From Egibacteraceae bacterium (GTDB lineage Bacteria > Actinomycetota > Nitriliruptoria > Euzebyales > Egibacteraceae): a DNA stretch of 64,000 bases. Under the pieces are notes generated by a model, which was not told the origin of the DNA, searched no databases, and saw nothing but the letters and a program-made list of their open reading frames with translations. A program made the position numbers and the translations under genes. Location: NCBI GenBank assembly GCA_035540635.1, contig DATLGH010000067.1, positions 22,763 through 86,762 on the forward strand, in the 5' to 3' direction. How positions within the stretch are numbered: the stretch's first letter is position 1; each line of letters starts with the position of its first letter. This document shows, in pieces, positions 29,361-38,138 of the stretch.

Positions 29361-29839
29361 TCCGCGTCCTCCTTCAGGGTCTCGATCGTCTGCTCGGGCT
29401 TGGGGTTGACGCGGTCGAGCTTCTCCTTGCCCTGGCGGAACAGGACACCGGCCACCACGGCGTAGATGACACCGACGACGAGGAACCCGACCCACACCGG
29501 CAGGAACTCCCCGAGCGCGAAGGCGAGCGCGAACGACAGCATGACCGCCGCCATGTAGCCGGCGCCCCCGGCGCCGCCCAGCGCCCCGGCGGCCTTGCCC
29601 GCCCGCCGGACCTCCTGTTTGATCTCGGTCTGGGCGAGCTCGATCTCCTTGCGGAAGAGCGTGCTCAGCTGGTTGAGCAGCGTCGACAGCAGCTCGGAGA
29701 GCGACTGGTCGTCGTCGCCGGAGGGGGGCGGCCCCGCGGGAGGGGCTGCTGAGGGAGGCGGTCCCGCGGGACGGCCGGAGGAGGCCGAGGTGTTGGCCTT
29801 CGGCAGTCTCGGAAGACGCCCGGATGGTGCGGACATCAC
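29336..29839 (-). CDS. DUF1469 (phage holin superfamily III) membrane protein
   Basis: 167 aa. Pro-rich cytoplasmic start, amphipathic helix (STLLNQLSTLFRKEIELAQT), and two TM helices (AAVMLSFALAFALGEFLPVW and GFLVVGVIYAVVAGVLF). In actinobacteria this family is routinely encoded with DUF3618 proteins, as here. Overlaps both neighbours (4 bases upstream, 25 downstream). Confidence 0.85.
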   Translation of the reverse strand: MMSAPSGRLPRLPKANTSASSGRPAGPPPSAAPPAGPPPSGDDDQSLSELLSTLLNQLSTLFRKEIELAQTEIKQEVRRAGKAAGALGGAGGAGYMAAVMLSFALAFALGEFLPVWVGFLVVGVIYAVVAGVLFRQGKEKLDRVNPKPEQTIETLKEDAEWIKNRRS

Positions 29840-30570
29840 CGCACCTCCGAACCGCGCACGGGAGCGCCGGTCTGGGCGCCGGTGCTCTCCAGCGCACGGG
29901 GTGACATCACCGTTCTCCGTGGCGCGCGGGTTGCACCGAGACGCTGGACCCGCTCGTCGAGGGCAGGGTCGGGCGCTCCGGGTGGGGTGGCCGGGATGGC
30001 GTCGGGCGTCCCCTCGGCACCGTCACTCGAGTCGGCTCGGGCGTTGCGCAGGAGCCGGCTCGTGAGCAGCCCCGCCGCCGCGGCACCGGCGAGGAACGCA
30101 CCCGGGCGCCGCCTGGCGAACTGTTGGAGCTCCTCGATGCTGCCGCGGGCGCCGAGCTCGTCGATGCGCCCGGCGATCTCGATGAGCGTGCCGGAGACCT
30201 GGTGGACGTAGCGGTCCACGTCACCGGCCTCCTCCGTGCGGCCCTCGGCGAGGGCCCGCGCCTGCTCGCCGGCCCCCCGCAGGGCCTCGGCGAGCTTGTG
30301 CGCCTGCTGCTCGGCCTGCTCCTCCAGCTGAGACGCGGCCGACGACACGAGGTCCTGTGCGTGCACGCTCACGTCCTCCGCGACGCGACCGGCCTGCTCC
30401 TGGACGGTCTCGCCGACCGAGCGCGCCTCCTGGGCCGCCGACTCGGCGAGCTGCTGTCCCTCCTGCTTCGCGGCGCCCCCTACCTGCTTCGCCTTGCCCC
30501 CGTCGCGCCCGTTGCCCCCGGTGGTGCCGGCGGCGGCCGCTGGCGGCGAGAGTCGATCGTTCGTGGTCAC
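29836..30570 (-). CDS. Coiled-coil membrane-associated protein, head of the envelope operon
   Basis: About 244 aa. N-terminal Glu/Gln/Ala-rich coiled coil (KQEGQQLAESAAQEARSVGE, LEEQAEQQAHKLAEALRGAG), then a hydrophobic helix (PGAFLAGAAAAGLLTSRLL) and a Pro-rich tail. GTG at 30570 chosen for AGGTGA five bases upstream; GTG at 30579 is an alternative. Family often co-occurs with DUF1469 and DUF3618 genes. Function unknown. Confidence 0.7.
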   Translation of the reverse strand: MTTNDRLSPPAAAAGTTGGNGRDGGKAKQVGGAAKQEGQQLAESAAQEARSVGETVQEQAGRVAEDVSVHAQDLVSSAASQLEEQAEQQAHKLAEALRGAGEQARALAEGRTEEAGDVDRYVHQVSGTLIEIAGRIDELGARGSIEELQQFARRRPGAFLAGAAAAGLLTSRLLRNARADSSDGAEGTPDAIPATPPGAPDPALDERVQRLGATRAPRRTVMSPRALESTGAQTGAPVRGSEVR

Positions 30571-30673: not shown

Positions 30674-31495
30674 TCAGCCAGGCCGGGCGGGGGCTTCCCC
30701 GCGCGCCGGCTTTCTCCCCGCAACCGTCACGGCGACCGCAACCTCCGCCTGCCGTTCAGCCGGGATGAGCCTGCCCATGACCTCGATGAGGTCGGGAGTG
30801 AACAGCGGGTAGCGAGCAGCGTCAGCAAGGCCGAACCCCCGGCGCGCGAGCCGCTCGACGCCAACAAACCCCACGTTGGTCATCTTCTGGGCGAAGACAC
30901 GCTCCGCCAGTGCGCCGGACACTCACCCGGCCCACGCGGAGGGATGGGTGAGCACCTCCGCGGGCAGGTCCTCCTCACGAACGGTGAGGTCCGCGACGCA
31001 CAACCGGCCACCGGGACGCAGGATGCGGTGCGCCTCGGCCAGCACCCGGCTCTTGCGCGCGGACAGGTTGATCGCCCCGTTCGAGATGACGACGTCCACC
31101 GAGCCGTCCGGCAAGGGCAGCGACTCCATCTCCCCTTGCCGGAACGTGACGTTGGCGACCCCGGCCTCGCGGGCGAACGCTTCGGCGCGCTCGACCATCT
31201 CCGCCAGGAGGTCGACGCCGACCACGCAACCGGCCGGGCCCACGAGACGGGCCGCGAGCAGGCTGTCGATCCCGGCGCCGCAGCCGATGTCGGCGACGAC
31301 CTCCCCCTCCGCGAGCTCCGCCCACGCGACCGGGTTGCCCACGCCGAGCGCCCACTCCCGCGCGCCGGCGGGCAGCTCCGCGAGCTGCTCGTCGGTGTAG
31401 AAGCGCGTACCCGGTCCGCCAGGATCCTCCAGCGACCGGTAGGCGTCCGCGACGAGCTGGCGGATCTCGTCCCTGTACATGAGGTCCTTCGTCAC
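30674..31495 (-). CDS. ArsM-like SAM methyltransferase, predicted selenoprotein (Sec191)
   Basis: Read with UGA (30925-30923) as selenocysteine this is 273 aa; otherwise it splits into 190 and 82 aa pieces in the same frame. SAM motif VADIGCGAGIDSLLAARLVG; motif LRPGGRLCVADLT. The UGA falls in SAWAG-U-VSGALAERVFAQKM, where ArsM-type enzymes have a conserved Cys (G-C-[IV]-x-G-A). The part after UGA continues normal C-terminal methyltransferase sequence (VGFVGVERLARRGFGLADAA). A hairpin follows the UGA. The other two arsenic-binding Cys of ArsM are Ser/Gly here, so the substrate may not be arsenite. Start overlaps the anti-sigma stop (ATGA). Confidence 0.82.
30890..30925 (-). promoter_or_regulatory. 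UGA-Sec codon and SECIS-like hairpin, methyltransferase 1
   Basis: UGA at 30925-30923, 14-nt spacer, then stem GGCGGAG (30908-30902), loop CGUGU, stem CUUCGCC (30896-30890): 7 pairs with one G-U. The loop is 21 nt past the UGA and carries GU, matching bacterial SECIS size and position. Confidence 0.7.
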
Positions 31496-31731
31496 GACGA
31501 CCCCCCCTCGAGGGTGTCGAGGAAGCCGACGAGGTGCTCCTCCACGTCGCTCGGCAGCTGCGGACCGCGGGTCTGCTGGAGCATGTCGCGCAGCGCGGCG
31601 GTGAACTCAGCCTCACCGCAGCAGCGACGGCACAGCGCCAGGTGGGCGTCGACGCGGTCGCGTTCGGGCGCGTCGAGGTCCTTGTCGAGGTACTCCCAGA
31701 GCCGGCGGACCGCCTCGCTGCAGCTGATCAT
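31492..31731 (-). CDS. Zinc-type anti-sigma factor (ZAS/zf-HC2)
   Basis: 79 aa with the H-x3-C-x2-C motif (HLALCRRCC) of cytoplasmic zinc anti-sigma factors, preceded by CSEAVRRLWEYLDKDLDAPE. Such proteins hold an ECF sigma factor and release it on thiol oxidation or metal stress. It overlaps the sigma gene (ATGA) upstream and the methyltransferase (ATGA) downstream, tying all three into one translationally coupled operon. No TM helix. Confidence 0.88.
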   Translation of the reverse strand: MISCSEAVRRLWEYLDKDLDAPERDRVDAHLALCRRCCGEAEFTAALRDMLQQTRGPQLPSDVEEHLVGFLDTLEGGSS

Positions 31732-32324
31732 CGCGGAGCCCCCTCCGGGTCGGCGAGCAGGTCCCGTTCGGTGGCGTACTCCCAGAGCTCGCGTTCGAAG
31801 TGCTTGCGGCCGCGGTGGAGCCAGGACAGCACGGTGCCCTGCGCGACGCCGAACATGCGGGCGACCTGCTTCGTGGAGTGGCCCTCCATGTGGACGAGGA
31901 CGAGCGGCGCGCGGTACTTCGGGTCGACGCGGTCAAGGACGTTCCAGACGTCGTCCTCGGAGAAGGAGTTGAGGAAGTCGAGGTGGACGCTGTCGGAGTA
32001 CGGCCAGGGGTCTTCCTCGGCGATCTTGCGGTACAGCGAGTAGTCCGGCCGGGGGTCCACCGGCTCCTCGCGTGGCAAGCCGGCGTCCTTCCGGTAGCGG
32101 TCCCGGACGCAGTTGAGGAGGATCTGGCGGAACCAGGCGGGCGCCGCCTGCACGTCCCGGAGCCCGTCGAAGCCCCGGTGGGCTTTGATGAGGCACTCCT
32201 GGACGGTGTCCTCCGCCCGGTCGGGGCCCACGAGCCTGCGGGCGAGCGAGTACAGCCACGGCAGCTGCTCTCGGGCTACTGCCGTGAAGGTTGCTCGCTG
32301 GGCTTCAGCCACCGCGTCGGCCAC
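31728..32324 (-). CDS. ECF-family RNA polymerase sigma factor
   Basis: 198 aa. Region 2 (AREQLPWLYSLARRLVGPDR, then EDTVQECLIKAHRGFDGLRD) and region 4 (MEGHSTKQVARMFGVAQGTV, then LSWLHRGRKHFERELW). Coupled to a zinc anti-sigma gene, so probably redox or metal controlled. Targets likely include its own operon and perhaps the divergent methyltransferase. Start at 32324 begins MADAVAEAQRATFTAVAREQ. Confidence 0.9.
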   Translation of the reverse strand: MADAVAEAQRATFTAVAREQLPWLYSLARRLVGPDRAEDTVQECLIKAHRGFDGLRDVQAAPAWFRQILLNCVRDRYRKDAGLPREEPVDPRPDYSLYRKIAEEDPWPYSDSVHLDFLNSFSEDDVWNVLDRVDPKYRAPLVLVHMEGHSTKQVARMFGVAQGTVLSWLHRGRKHFERELWEYATERDLLADPEGAPR

Positions 32325-32657
32325 GGCTCACGGGGGCGTGCAAGGTCACCGCGGGCTCGGCGTCGACGTGGACGGGCGGGGTCGCGGGGAACACCTTCGT
32401 TCTCGCCTTCGGTCGTGGATCGCTCAGCGTTGAGGACGAAACCACACCGTCGATTATTGCAGTCGGCGCACGGTGGCCGGCGGGTCACCGTGACGGGCGC
32501 GCCCTGCCGCGGGTAGGGGCCGTCCTGACCGAGGGGGGCCGATGGGTGCGTGAAGCACGCGAACTCCCGATCAGGCTTCGCCGTCGTGGAGGGGACGCAA
32601 TAGGAGCCCGTCGCACGCGTCCTACCTCGTGAGCCCATCGACGGAGAGGAGACACCT
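32325..32657. other. Divergent promoter region between the sigma operon and methyltransferase 2
   Basis: 333 bases without a gene. It should contain promoters for both directions. A GGAAC at 32388-32392 resembles an ECF -35 but no firm -10 could be paired. GGAGAGGAG precedes the GTG start of the rightward gene. Confidence 0.45.
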
Positions 32658-33461
32658 GTGAAATCGAGCGGAACGGCGAACGCCCCGGCGCCGCGAACGA
32701 CGCCGGTGAACCCCGACGCGCTGCGGGCGGAGGTGCGACGCAAGTACCGCGAGGTGGCGCACGACCCCGCCGGAGCCCACCACTTCCACACGGGCCGTGC
32801 CCTGGCCCGCCTCCTCGGCTACCCCGCCGAGGCGGTCGACGCGTTGCCCGAGCGGGCCGCCGAGTCCTTCGCCGGCATCGCGAACCCCTTCTCGCTGCGC
32901 CCGCTCGCCGAGGGAGAGCGGGTCGTCGACGTGGGCTCGGGTGCGGGGTTCGACAGCATCCTCGCCGCCCAGCAGGTCGGGCCCGGTGGTGCCGTCGTCG
33001 GCGTCGACATGACCGCCGAGATGCTCCGTAAGGCACGACGCAACGCCGCCGAGCTCGGGCTCGGCAACGTCGAGTTCAGAGAAGGGCTCGCCGAAGCCCT
33101 GCCCGTCGAGGACGGCTGGGCCGACGTCGCCATAGCCAACGGGGTGCTCAACCTCTGCGTCGACAAGCGGGTCGTGCTCGACGAGCTCAGCAGGGTGCTC
33201 ACCCCCGGCGGCTGGCTGCAGTTCGGCGACATCGCCAACGCCACTCCCGTCCCCCCGGACTCCCTGGGGGACATCGACCTCTGGACCGGGTGAATCGCGG
33301 GCGGCCTGCCGTGCGCAGGCTGGCGGATGATCCTCGAGGAGGCCGGGTTCGTCGACGTGGCGATCGGCCCGCCGATCGACACCTTCGGGGGAGCGCGTGG
33401 TGAGGACCGGGCCCGCGCGTTCGGCGTGTACGGCTACGCGTTCCTGGCCCGCAGACCCTGA
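32658..33461 (+). CDS. ArsM-like SAM methyltransferase, predicted selenoprotein (Sec212)
   Basis: 267 aa if UGA at 33291-33293 is read as selenocysteine. SAM motif VVDVGSGAGFDSILAAQQVG; motif LTPGGWLQFGDI. The stop interrupts DIDLWTG-U-IAGGLPCAGWRM, and the frame continues with typical family C-terminus (ILEEAGFVDVAIGPPIDTFG, then AFGVYGYAFLARRP) to a TGA at 33461. Same position as Sec191 of the divergent methyltransferase. GTG start with GGAGAGGAG upstream. It keeps Sec but lacks the N-terminal arsenic-binding Cys (GFDS) and has NGVLNLC in place of the N-C-V-I-N-L of ArsM. Confidence 0.84.
33291..33322 (+). promoter_or_regulatory. UGA-Sec codon and SECIS-like hairpin, methyltransferase 2
   Basis: UGA at 33291-33293, then stem CGGCCUGC (33302-33309), loop CGUGC (33310-33314), stem GCAGGCUG (33315-33322): 8 pairs with one G-U. 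The loop starts 16 nt after the UGA. The loop sequence is nearly the same as in the other methyltransferase although the stems differ. Confidence 0.72.
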
Positions 33462-33594: not shown

Positions 33595-33945
33595 ATGCCG
33601 GACAGAGGCGGCCGGGGGTCGTCGGGTTCGCTCCTCCAGGGTGGACTGTGGATGCTCATCCTCGCGGTCCTGCTGTCGTGGTTGCCGATCCTGGGCCCGC
33701 TGATCGCGGGGTTCGTGGGAGGGCGCATGATCGGCGAGCAGACGCGTGCCCTCGGCGTCGCTCTCGTGCCTGCGGTGATCCTCGCAGGCGTGCTCTGGGC
33801 GATCCTCGCGGCGTTCGACCTTCCCGTGCTCGGAGCCGTCGCCGGTTTCGGCGCGCTCGTCGTCGTGGCGGTTCAGGAGCTGCCGCTGCTCCTGGGCGCA
33901 TGGTTCGGGGCCGCCACGAACGCGGGCTCGAGAGCCGCTGCATGA
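33595..33945 (+). CDS. Small membrane protein
   Basis: 116 aa, three to four TM helices (LWMLILAVLLSWLPILGPLI, ALGVALVPAVILAGVLWAIL, GAVAGFGALVVVAVQELPLL). Gly/Ser-rich start (MPDRGGRGSSGSLLQGG). Ribosome binding site AGAAGGGGGG. No family recognised. Convergent with recX. Confidence 0.65.
   Translation: MPDRGGRGSSGSLLQGGLWMLILAVLLSWLPILGPLIAGFVGGRMIGEQTRALGVALVPAVILAGVLWAILAAFDLPVLGAVAGFGALVVVAVQELPLLLGAWFGAATNAGSRAAA

Positions 33946-34672: not shown

Positions 34673-34676
<4 letters not shown>
34056..34676 (-). CDS. recX: Regulatory protein RecX
   Basis: 206 aa RecA modulator that binds and caps RecA filaments. Contains the triple-helix repeats of Rec[21 protein letters not shown], then [20 protein letters not shown] with [20 protein letters not shown], and [20 protein letters not shown]. 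Start overlaps the recA stop (ATGA). N-terminal 50 residues are low-complexity. Co-transcribed with recA and so under SOS control. Confidence 0.92.
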
Positions 34677-37999
<3,323 letters not shown>

Positions 38000-38109
38000 C
38001 GGGTTCCCTTCGGTCGTCGGGCGGTCGTCGACCCAACTCGTGAACACCGTAGCGGTGGGGTGTGACAGGCCGGGTGCATCGGCGGTCGCGGGTGTTGACA
38101 AGTGCGCGG

Positions 38110-38138
38110 ATCGTACCGAACCCATGTTCGGTTGTCAG
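38110..38138 (-). promoter_or_regulatory. recA promoter with SOS (LexA) box in the spacer
   Basis: On the minus strand: -35 CTGACA (38138-38133), 17-bp spacer, -10 TACGAT (38115-38110). The spacer carries CCGAACATGGGTTCGG, a CGAAC-N4-GTTCG palindrome matching the actinobacterial LexA site. LexA bound there would cover both promoter elements. Predicted leader to the ATG is about 100 bases. Confidence 0.88.

Follow-up and report, generated by a model that had tools for sequence, protein, structure and literature searches.

The 64-kb window (i.e., the whole stretch of DNA analyzed in this study) encodes two nearby divergent paralogues with an ArsM fold, hereafter A and B, each of which contains one in-frame UGA before its terminal stop codon (Table 1). 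The terminal stops are also TGA (30676-30674 on the minus strand for A and 33459-33461 on the plus strand for B). The initial annotation had located the two in-frame TGAs and counted 83 (A) and 56 (B) further codons including the UGA; re-reading of the sequence found both TGAs at exactly the same positions and returned the same counts. It had also anticipated that standard annotation would yield truncated genes plus an orphan ORF, and ORF calling indeed split A into a 190-aa ORF and a separate 82-aa ORF (30922-30674) and shortened B to a 211-aa ORF. Similarly, the two public proteins that match the window, P0003 (185 aa) and P0123 (211 aa), both stop right before the UGA. Public databases shorten the A and B proteins because this in-frame UGA is likely a selenocysteine (Sec) codon, as discussed below.

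Table 1. Features of the A/B locus, with positions numbered from the first nucleotide of the window
Feature	Position	Strand	Description
Gene A, ArsM-like SAM methyltransferase	30674..31495	-	GTG start, 273 codons + stop; UGA is codon 191
In-frame UGA of A, predicted Sec191	30923..30925	-	WAG-U-VSG; column of CmArsM Cys224
Predicted SECIS-like hairpin of A	30890..30908	-	GGCGGAG-CGUGU-CUUCGCC; loop nt 25-29 from U of UGA
Zinc-finger anti-sigma factor, zf-HC2, HxxxCxxC	31492..31731	-	Pfam PF13490; overlaps start of A
ECF sigma factor, regions 2 and 4	31728..32324	-	Pfam PF04542, PF08281; overlaps start of anti-sigma gene
Gene B, second ArsM-like SAM methyltransferase	32658..33461	+	GTG start, 267 codons + stop; UGA is codon 212
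In-frame UGA of B, predicted Sec212	33291..33293	+	WTG-U-IAG; column of CmArsM Cys224
Predicted SECIS-like hairpin of B	33302..33322	+	CGGCCUGC-CGUGC-GCAGGCUG; loop nt 20-24 from U of UGA

Codon column, coding constraint and predicted hairpins

Codons and hairpins were counted in 42 A and 35 B non-redundant genes of relatives. The column of the UGA was TGA in 25, TGC in 14 and TGT in 3 of the A genes, and TGA in 29 and TGC in 6 of the B genes; hence all 77 genes had TGA, TGC or TGT there, and each of the 23 genes without UGA for which DNA was available had a sense codon for Cys (TGC or TGT). The UGA of both A and B is thus aligned with the catalytic Cys of homologues, as in selenoprotein genes. 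The homologues show that this is more than chance: among the best 120 of 7805 matched A homologues (the window's own included), 78 ended exactly before this column and 42 had Cys, while among the best 120 of 7950 matched B homologues, 9 ended before it, 109 had Cys and 2 had Trp. In total, 87 of these 240 best-listed homologues (78 A and 9 B) ended at the Sec codon, indicating that database entries for proteins of the A/B type widely lose everything from that codon on. Some of the shortened entries bear the name arsenite methyltransferase.

All four combinations of the two forms were found in the 17 loci with both genes, seven of which had UGA in both, five Cys in A and UGA in B, four Cys in both and one UGA in A and Cys in B. 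Despite these combinations, the trees need only two (A) and one (B) changes of codon state, and their well-supported branches force just one change, which is deep (38 A and 34 B genes). Given that so few changes are needed, repeated independent switching between Sec and Cys is not claimed, and the sequences counted here are non-independent.

The results on codon positions, trees, residue columns and re-encoding were obtained with a smaller set of 38 A and 34 B genes, from which L039 B, L050 A, L065 A, L066 A and L071 A were left out for having a neighbour in the same frame; L053 (partial) and L054 (a 48-residue piece) were outside both gene sets. In pairs of UGA-form A genes, the divergence at the three codon positions was.348/.280/.486 after the UGA vs..309/.244/.492 before it. 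The corresponding values for B were.264/.263/.422 and.270/.249/.452. In both A and B, the frame downstream of the UGA is constrained to a similar degree as the upstream part, and the stretch after the UGA is in most genes as long, in residues, as in Cys forms that carry no extension. According to the initial annotation, relatives that stop at this UGA and show no conservation beyond it would speak against its reading; the relatives show the opposite.

Bacterial SECIS elements are expected to contain a G in the loop, and a predicted stem-loop of this type, with G in its loop, lies shortly 3' of the UGA in both A and B. When a stem of at least 7 bp at a fixed place after the UGA was required, the hairpin was present in 25/25 UGA-type vs. 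0/17 Cys-type A genes and in 27/29 UGA-type vs. 0/6 Cys-type B genes, and was therefore absent from all 23 Cys genes. The two UGA-type B genes with no stem at the fixed place (L048 and L096) each had another candidate hairpin. In L100 and L101 the loop of the hairpin differs. When the same peptides were re-encoded with synonymous codons, 10.6% of the draws for A and 6.2% of those for B contained the hairpin. Only the fixed-place hairpin separated the UGA forms: the folding energy of single sequences was not unusual against codon shuffles for most genes, and free-energy z-scores in 63-nt windows gave no separation.

Selenocysteine machinery and the reading of the UGA codons

The initial annotation had proposed a search of the genome for selA, selB, selD and tRNA-Sec, the absence of which would have spoken against its reading, and the full set was found. 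The genome encodes a tRNA-Sec with anticodon UCA (69 bits), SelA (355.7 bits), SelB (307.4 bits) and SelD (363.6 bits), all four over their cut-offs. The SelD gene itself has an in-frame TGA, and a formate dehydrogenase gene has one within a UHSS motif. Within the 64-kb window, no tRNA was found and Rfam gave no match at the gathering threshold. SelA was found in 23/26 genomes with a UGA form vs. 19/35 without (p=0.004), and among genomes at least 90% complete, in 13/13 vs. 11/20. The three UGA-form genomes without SelA were 71-78% complete.

Two other readings of the UGA codons were considered. If they were true stops, A and B would be pseudogenes or would encode functional truncated products (190 and 211 aa), which would agree with the standard annotation that ends both genes there and with the position of the Rossmann core upstream of the UGA. 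This is, however, very improbable given the invariable TGA or Cys codon at the column, the similarly constrained frame with its mostly conserved length and a hairpin that is specific to the UGA forms. The UGA might also be decoded as another amino acid, such as Trp or Gly, through a general or local change of the code, in line with the Trp found at the column in two of the best 120 B homologues (P0124 of Blastococcus deserti and P0234). But A, B, the anti-sigma gene and most of the relatives' A and B genes use UGA as their regular stop, every non-UGA gene uses TGC or TGT at the column, and tRNA-Sec(UCA) and SelB are present, which leaves a code change hardly any probability. Pseudogenes, true stops and a code change were therefore rejected on the basis of conservation, hairpin and machinery. 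The UGAs of A and B are instead very probably translated as Sec by the genome's own machinery, and Sec would likely serve as the single soft ligand for SAM-dependent methylation. SelA, SelB, SelD and tRNA-Sec would insert Sec at both UGAs, directed by the predicted downstream hairpins. Judged from sequence, the interpretation of the initial annotation is thus supported, and the UGAs of A and B are likely Sec codons.

Fold, active-site cysteines and known selenoproteins

The AlphaFold2 models of A and B had mean pLDDT values of 91.6 and 87.5, respectively. Their best PDB matches were the ArsM structures 5evj and 4fr0 (A) and 4fr0 and 6cx6 (B), and the top 13 structural matches for both models were ArsM or human AS3MT. 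The UGA column corresponds to Cys224 of CmArsM and Cys206 of the human enzyme, so that the claim of two genes with UGA at the same conserved Cys holds. The position of CmArsM Cys72, however, is Val in A and Ile in B, and that of Cys174 is Gly in both, which distinguishes them from CmArsM and human AS3MT (PDB 4fr0, 4fsd, 5jx7, 5eg5 and 8xt7), whose fold they share. Among relatives, the Cys72 column is V/T/L in A (Cys in 0/38) and V/I/T/M in B (Cys in 0/34), and the Cys174 column is Gly in all 72 genes (38/38 A and 34/34 B). The label ArsM-like given in the initial annotation therefore fits the fold, but the substrate may be something other than arsenite because A and B are without the other two arsenic-ligand cysteines.

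The family scores were also below the curated cut-offs. Against NF008823 (cut-off 263 bits), the best NCBIfam match of A, A scored 219.1 and B 200.3 bits, while the canonical ArsM encoded elsewhere in this genome passed with 278.3 bits; the latter keeps each of the three Cys, and its available part contains no UGA. For NF041537, NF041536 and NF047649 (cut-offs of 510, 575 and 460 bits), A and B reached at most 215.1 bits.

A Sec-containing arsenite methyltransferase (NF008823, UxxG motif, WP_011987699.1) is listed as experimentally verified in Table 1 of PMC13188914, which cites Fomenko 2007. The kind of selenoprotein is thus known from that listing, and the novelty is smaller than the initial annotation implied, although its selenoprotein claim is supported. 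According to the same table and NCBIfam, the ArsM/AhpD (NF041537), ArsM/DUF2284 (NF041536) and methyltransferase/UXPK-star (NF047649) proteins have two or three Sec (PMC13188914). A and B resemble NF008823 in their ArsM fold and in a single Sec, here predicted, within UxxG (UVSG in A and UIAG in B), but they score under its cut-off, are without the Cys72 and Cys174 ligands and form a paralogue pair in actinobacteria with ECF sigma/anti-sigma genes; the comparison with WP_011987699.1 is by listing and motif. The other three families share Sec in the UxxG of an ArsM-like domain and rank high among the NCBIfam matches of A and B, but they take their names from a second domain or motif, while A and B are single-domain proteins with no second Pfam domain, have one in-frame UGA each and reach less than half of the cut-offs. 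What sets A and B apart is a single-domain paralogue pair without two of the arsenic-ligand cysteines, often adjoining, with A behind ECF sigma and anti-sigma genes. No publication on this actinobacterial pair was found among the matches listed, judged by titles and the starts of abstracts; this is a weak test, and the likeliest exception is Haft and Tolstoy 2025, reportedly the source of the ArsM/AhpD, ArsM/DUF2284 and methyltransferase/UXPK-star selenoproteins. A term look-up in PMC12013277 and PMC5029168 returned no methyltransferase or arsenic passage.

Genomic context and possible substrates

Genes for an ECF sigma factor and a zinc-finger anti-sigma factor were upstream of A in all 24 loci checked, including 23/23 named relative loci, and A and B often adjoin each other in relatives. 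Known thiol-sensing pairs of ECF sigma factor and ZAS anti-sigma factor include those of the SigR-RsrA type. The pair found here resembles them in that an ECF sigma gene adjoins a gene for an HxxxCxxC zinc-finger anti-sigma factor, but no GGAAC-N15-18-GTC promoter was found upstream of the sigma gene (24 stretches, three of them <70 nt) or of B (11 stretches). An OsmC-like gene was found in 6/24 loci (three checked by Pfam), and some A homologues are fused to a cupin or to a TusA-like domain that scores under the Pfam cut-off. No arsenic genes were recognized among the few neighbours examined beside the A/B pair.

With Val or Ile at the Cys72 position and Gly at that of Cys174, the Sec selenolate at the Cys224 position would be the sole remaining soft ligand of the active site. 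According to the published ligand rule for AS3MT, arsenite takes three Cys, methylarsenite two and dimethylarsenite one. By this rule, a one-ligand site would bind a soft substrate through one bond while SAM methylates it; the substrate could, for instance, be dimethylarsenite, which would give trimethylarsine, or a different metalloid or chalcogen species. Expression of A may be controlled by an ECF sigma/anti-sigma pair that senses thiols or metalloids. We tentatively propose, as a possibility and no stronger, a selenium-dependent two-enzyme methylation module of actinobacteria, of which A and B would be the founding members and in which a single selenolate, left over from the three-ligand arsenic site, would capture dimethylarsenite or a Se, Te or Hg compound, the work would be split between the paralogues and a thiol-sensing ECF sigma factor would switch the module on. 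When A and B were counted at E <= 1e-60, a canonical ArsM over the cut-off was found in 15/29 genomes with A or B vs. 7/32 without (p=0.015, one-sided). Because no such copy was found in the other 14 of the 29, the counts do not support a constant division of labour in which canonical ArsM would hand over dimethylarsenite as a rule. One canonical match with a TGA (G039) turned out to have Cys at the column, and its TGA is the terminal stop.

A and B could be arsenite methyltransferases of the usual sort, with Sec simply in place of one Cys, as their fold, their top structural matches and the first rank of NF008823 among the NCBIfam matches of A would suggest. For ArsRM, a reported arsenite methyltransferase, the model has Gln and Tyr instead of Cys in contact with the arsenic (PMC10190100), and the missing cysteines therefore leave room for arsenite. 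We consider this unlikely, given that both proteins score under a cut-off that the genome's other ArsM passes, that Cys72 and Cys174 are replaced in all genes checked and that, as stated in a passage of PMC3877260, CmArsM needs both C174 and C224 for arsenite and methylarsenite. A better prospect, with somewhat less than an even chance, is a substrate other than arsenic (Se, Te, Hg, a low-molecular thiol or selenol, or a thiol-reactive organic compound) that is methylated in a thiol-stress response. This is consistent with the loss of the arsenic-ligand cysteines, the operon with ECF sigma and HxxxCxxC anti-sigma genes, the OsmC-like neighbours and the TusA-like and cupin fusions, although every one of the nearest solved structures is of an arsenic enzyme.

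If the proposed role of Sec as single soft ligand is true, one selenolate would do the job of the three thiolates of ArsM in the active site of an enzyme that methylates metalloids or chalcogens. A and B in their Sec and Cys forms, together with the canonical ArsM of the same cell, would then allow the benefit of selenium to be compared.

Two UGA-containing ArsM-like genes and their ligand residues

The initial annotation had placed an in-frame TGA at a conserved Cys in two divergent ArsM-like methyltransferase genes, here called A and B, and had expected standard annotation to truncate both. Each TGA was found in the window sequence at the place reported, ordinary ORF calling broke both genes, and the public entries matching A and B (P0003, P0123) ended before the UGA. 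In pairwise alignments the UGA of A and of B aligned with Cys224 of CmArsM.

Coordinates of the genes and neighbouring features discussed in the text (U, selenocysteine; UGA read as U)
Feature	Location	Strand	Remark
Gene A	window, GTG 31495 to TGA 30676-30674	minus	U = residue 191 of 273
Gene B	window, GTG 32658 to TGA 33459-33461	plus	U = residue 212 of 267
Neighbouring ORF	window, 29836-30570	minus	no Pfam match
Neighbouring ORF	window, 33595-33945	plus	no Pfam match
RecA gene	window, 34673-38125	minus	1150 aa
SelD gene (L019)	G000:C3:38333-39253		in-frame TGA, UACK context
Formate dehydrogenase-like gene (L113)	G000:C33:11192-11929		in-frame TGA, UHSS motif
UGA-type B of another genome	G047:C88:7186-7956		
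selA of the same contig	G047:C88:10032-11084		about 2 kb from this B

Pfam named only generic methyltransferase domains in A and B. Their best NCBIfam matches were ArsM and three ArsM-containing selenoprotein families, with the cut-off reached by none of the 25 families listed for each protein. The AlphaFold2 models were good (pLDDT 91.6 and pTM 0.90 for A; 87.5 and 0.85 for B), and the best 13 Foldseek matches of each were ArsM and human AS3MT structures. Compared with CmArsM, A and B have lost two ligand cysteines: Cys72 lies opposite V52 in A and I74 in B, and Cys174 opposite G140 and G162, respectively. Cys was found at the Cys72 column in none of 38 A and 34 B genes, and the Cys174 column was Gly in all of them (38/38 and 34/34).

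According to PMC3877260, arsenite requires all three Cys of CmArsM and methylarsenite requires Cys174 and Cys224; dimethylarsenite is bound by one Cys. The selenolate of A or B would be the sole soft ligand in the active site and would hold a one-ligand substrate while SAM donates the methyl group. It should be noted that the arsenic contacts of Brevundimonas ArsRM are modelled as Gln and Tyr in PMC10190100, which speaks against a strict Cys-ligand rule.

Conservation across the UGA and the predicted hairpin

The selenoprotein reading had been tied to conservation beyond the UGA in relatives and to selenocysteine (Sec) machinery in the genome, and both were found. The codon-position divergence pattern was alike on either side of the UGA (38 A and 34 B genes), and Sec and Cys forms continued for a similar number of residues beyond the column, C-terminal extensions aside. 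Such extensions occur in the A homologues L047, L048, L051, L061, L067, L070, L073, L074, P0022 and P0071; that of P0071 is a cupin (Pfam), and that of P0022 has a TusA-like Pfam match below cut-off. Judged by eye, the tails of the extended loci resemble one or the other kind, L061 being a UGA form of A with a TusA-like kind of tail.

After removal of duplicates, the column codon was TGA in 25, TGC in 14 and TGT in 3 A genes, and TGA in 29 and TGC in 6 B genes; all four Sec/Cys combinations were present among 17 loci with both genes. Two B homologues, P0124 (Blastococcus deserti) and P0234, have Trp at the Sec column and Arg and Cys, respectively, at position +7; the Trp possibly reflects a TGA-to-TGG change, or a table-4 reading in the metagenome record.

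A hairpin with a stem of at least 7 bp and a 5-nt loop at a fixed place 3' of the UGA was predicted in all 25 UGA-type A genes, 24 of them with the loop CGUGN, and in 27/29 of the UGA-type B genes, with this loop in 25; at that place it was predicted in none of 17 Cys-type A and 6 Cys-type B genes. When the peptides of the smaller gene set were re-encoded at random with synonymous codons, such stems arose in 10.6% of draws for A and 6.2% for B. In that set one stem pair of B appeared as G-C in 13 genes and as C-G in 15, out of 29; for one stem pair of A the counts were 12 G-C, 9 G-U and 3 A-U, out of 24. A simpler free-energy test did not set the UGA forms apart. Two distant B-like UGA genes, L100 (G027) and L101 (G023), have a 9-bp stem with a UGGAG loop instead of CGUGN.

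A Cys seven residues after Sec is found in 26 of the 29 UGA-type B genes, where its position overlaps the hairpin loop codons. Given that it also occurs in 35 of 109 Cys-type B homologues among the matches listed (best 120 of 7950), a role in the protein is possible despite this overlap, and this Cys may reduce the selenenyl form.

Selenocysteine machinery and distribution

The genome of the window (3.46 Mb, 110 contigs, 96.5% complete) encodes tRNA-Sec (anticodon TCA), SelA, SelB and SelD. The SelD gene has its own in-frame TGA and a candidate hairpin with a GGUCC loop, a second, alternative hairpin after the UGA scoring equally. The formate dehydrogenase-like gene is below the TIGR01591 cut-off, and its TGA is followed by the hairpin GGTCCCC[GGTCT]GGGGACC; it probably encodes another selenoprotein of the window's genome. 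The candidate loops GGUCU (formate dehydrogenase), GGUCC (SelD), CGUGU (A) and CGUGC (B) conform to NGUNY.

Among 61 genomes searched at E <= 1e-60, the window's own included, A was found in 21, B in 26 and both in 18 (co-occurrence p=9e-7); in 14 of these 18 the two genes share a contig and are a few kb apart at most. Of 396 genomes in a phylum sample, 23 had A. At least one of the two genes was in its UGA form in 26 of the 61; SelA was found in 23 of these 26 vs 19 of the other 35 (p=0.004), and the three UGA-form genomes without it are 71-78% complete. For the 33 genomes with completeness of 90% or more and contamination of no more than 5%, the counts were 13/13 vs 11/20 (p=0.004). We infer that Sec is inserted at the UGA of A and B.

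A canonical ArsM over cut-off was found in 22 of the 61 genomes; in 21 of these copies the matched stretch contains no stop, and the TGA of the remaining one is terminal. The copy of the window's genome (L024) has the GCG, SNC and GCIAG cysteines, exceeds the NF008823 cut-off and has no UGA in the available part of the gene, which is cut by the contig end. Thus, among the ArsM-like genes of the 61-genome sample, predicted Sec is confined to the Cys174-less paralogues.

Regulator genes upstream of A and the listed ArsM selenoproteins

Gene A follows ECF sigma and zf-HC2 anti-sigma genes, with overlapping gene ends. Relatives of A turned up at 24 loci in a scan of genome contigs, and both regulators were upstream of A in all 23 named loci L031-L053 (identity 47-81% for sigma, 35-64% for anti-sigma), the sigma match being partial near the contig end in L031 and L035; L054, a 48-residue piece, was excluded. 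Judged from the regulator type only, their trigger could be thiol or metalloid stress. An OsmC-like gene was nearby in 6 of the 24 compared loci; Pfam was used to check three of these six genes. Two inteins interrupt the RecA gene in the window, and their homing-endonuclease domains are LAGLIDADG_2 and LAGLIDADG_3.

PMC13188914 lists, as an experimentally verified selenoprotein, an arsenite methyltransferase whose Sec lies in a UxxG motif, and, as predicted ones, three fused ArsM-like families; ArsM is also among the selenoproteins listed in PMC9312934. A and B share the UxxG motif but score below the cut-offs of all those models, lack two ligand cysteines and make up a regulated actinobacterial pair. 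Sec in ArsM is already on record; we regard the ligand-reduced, regulated pair, whose anatomy, conservation and accompanying Sec machinery were shown by computation, as probably the new part.
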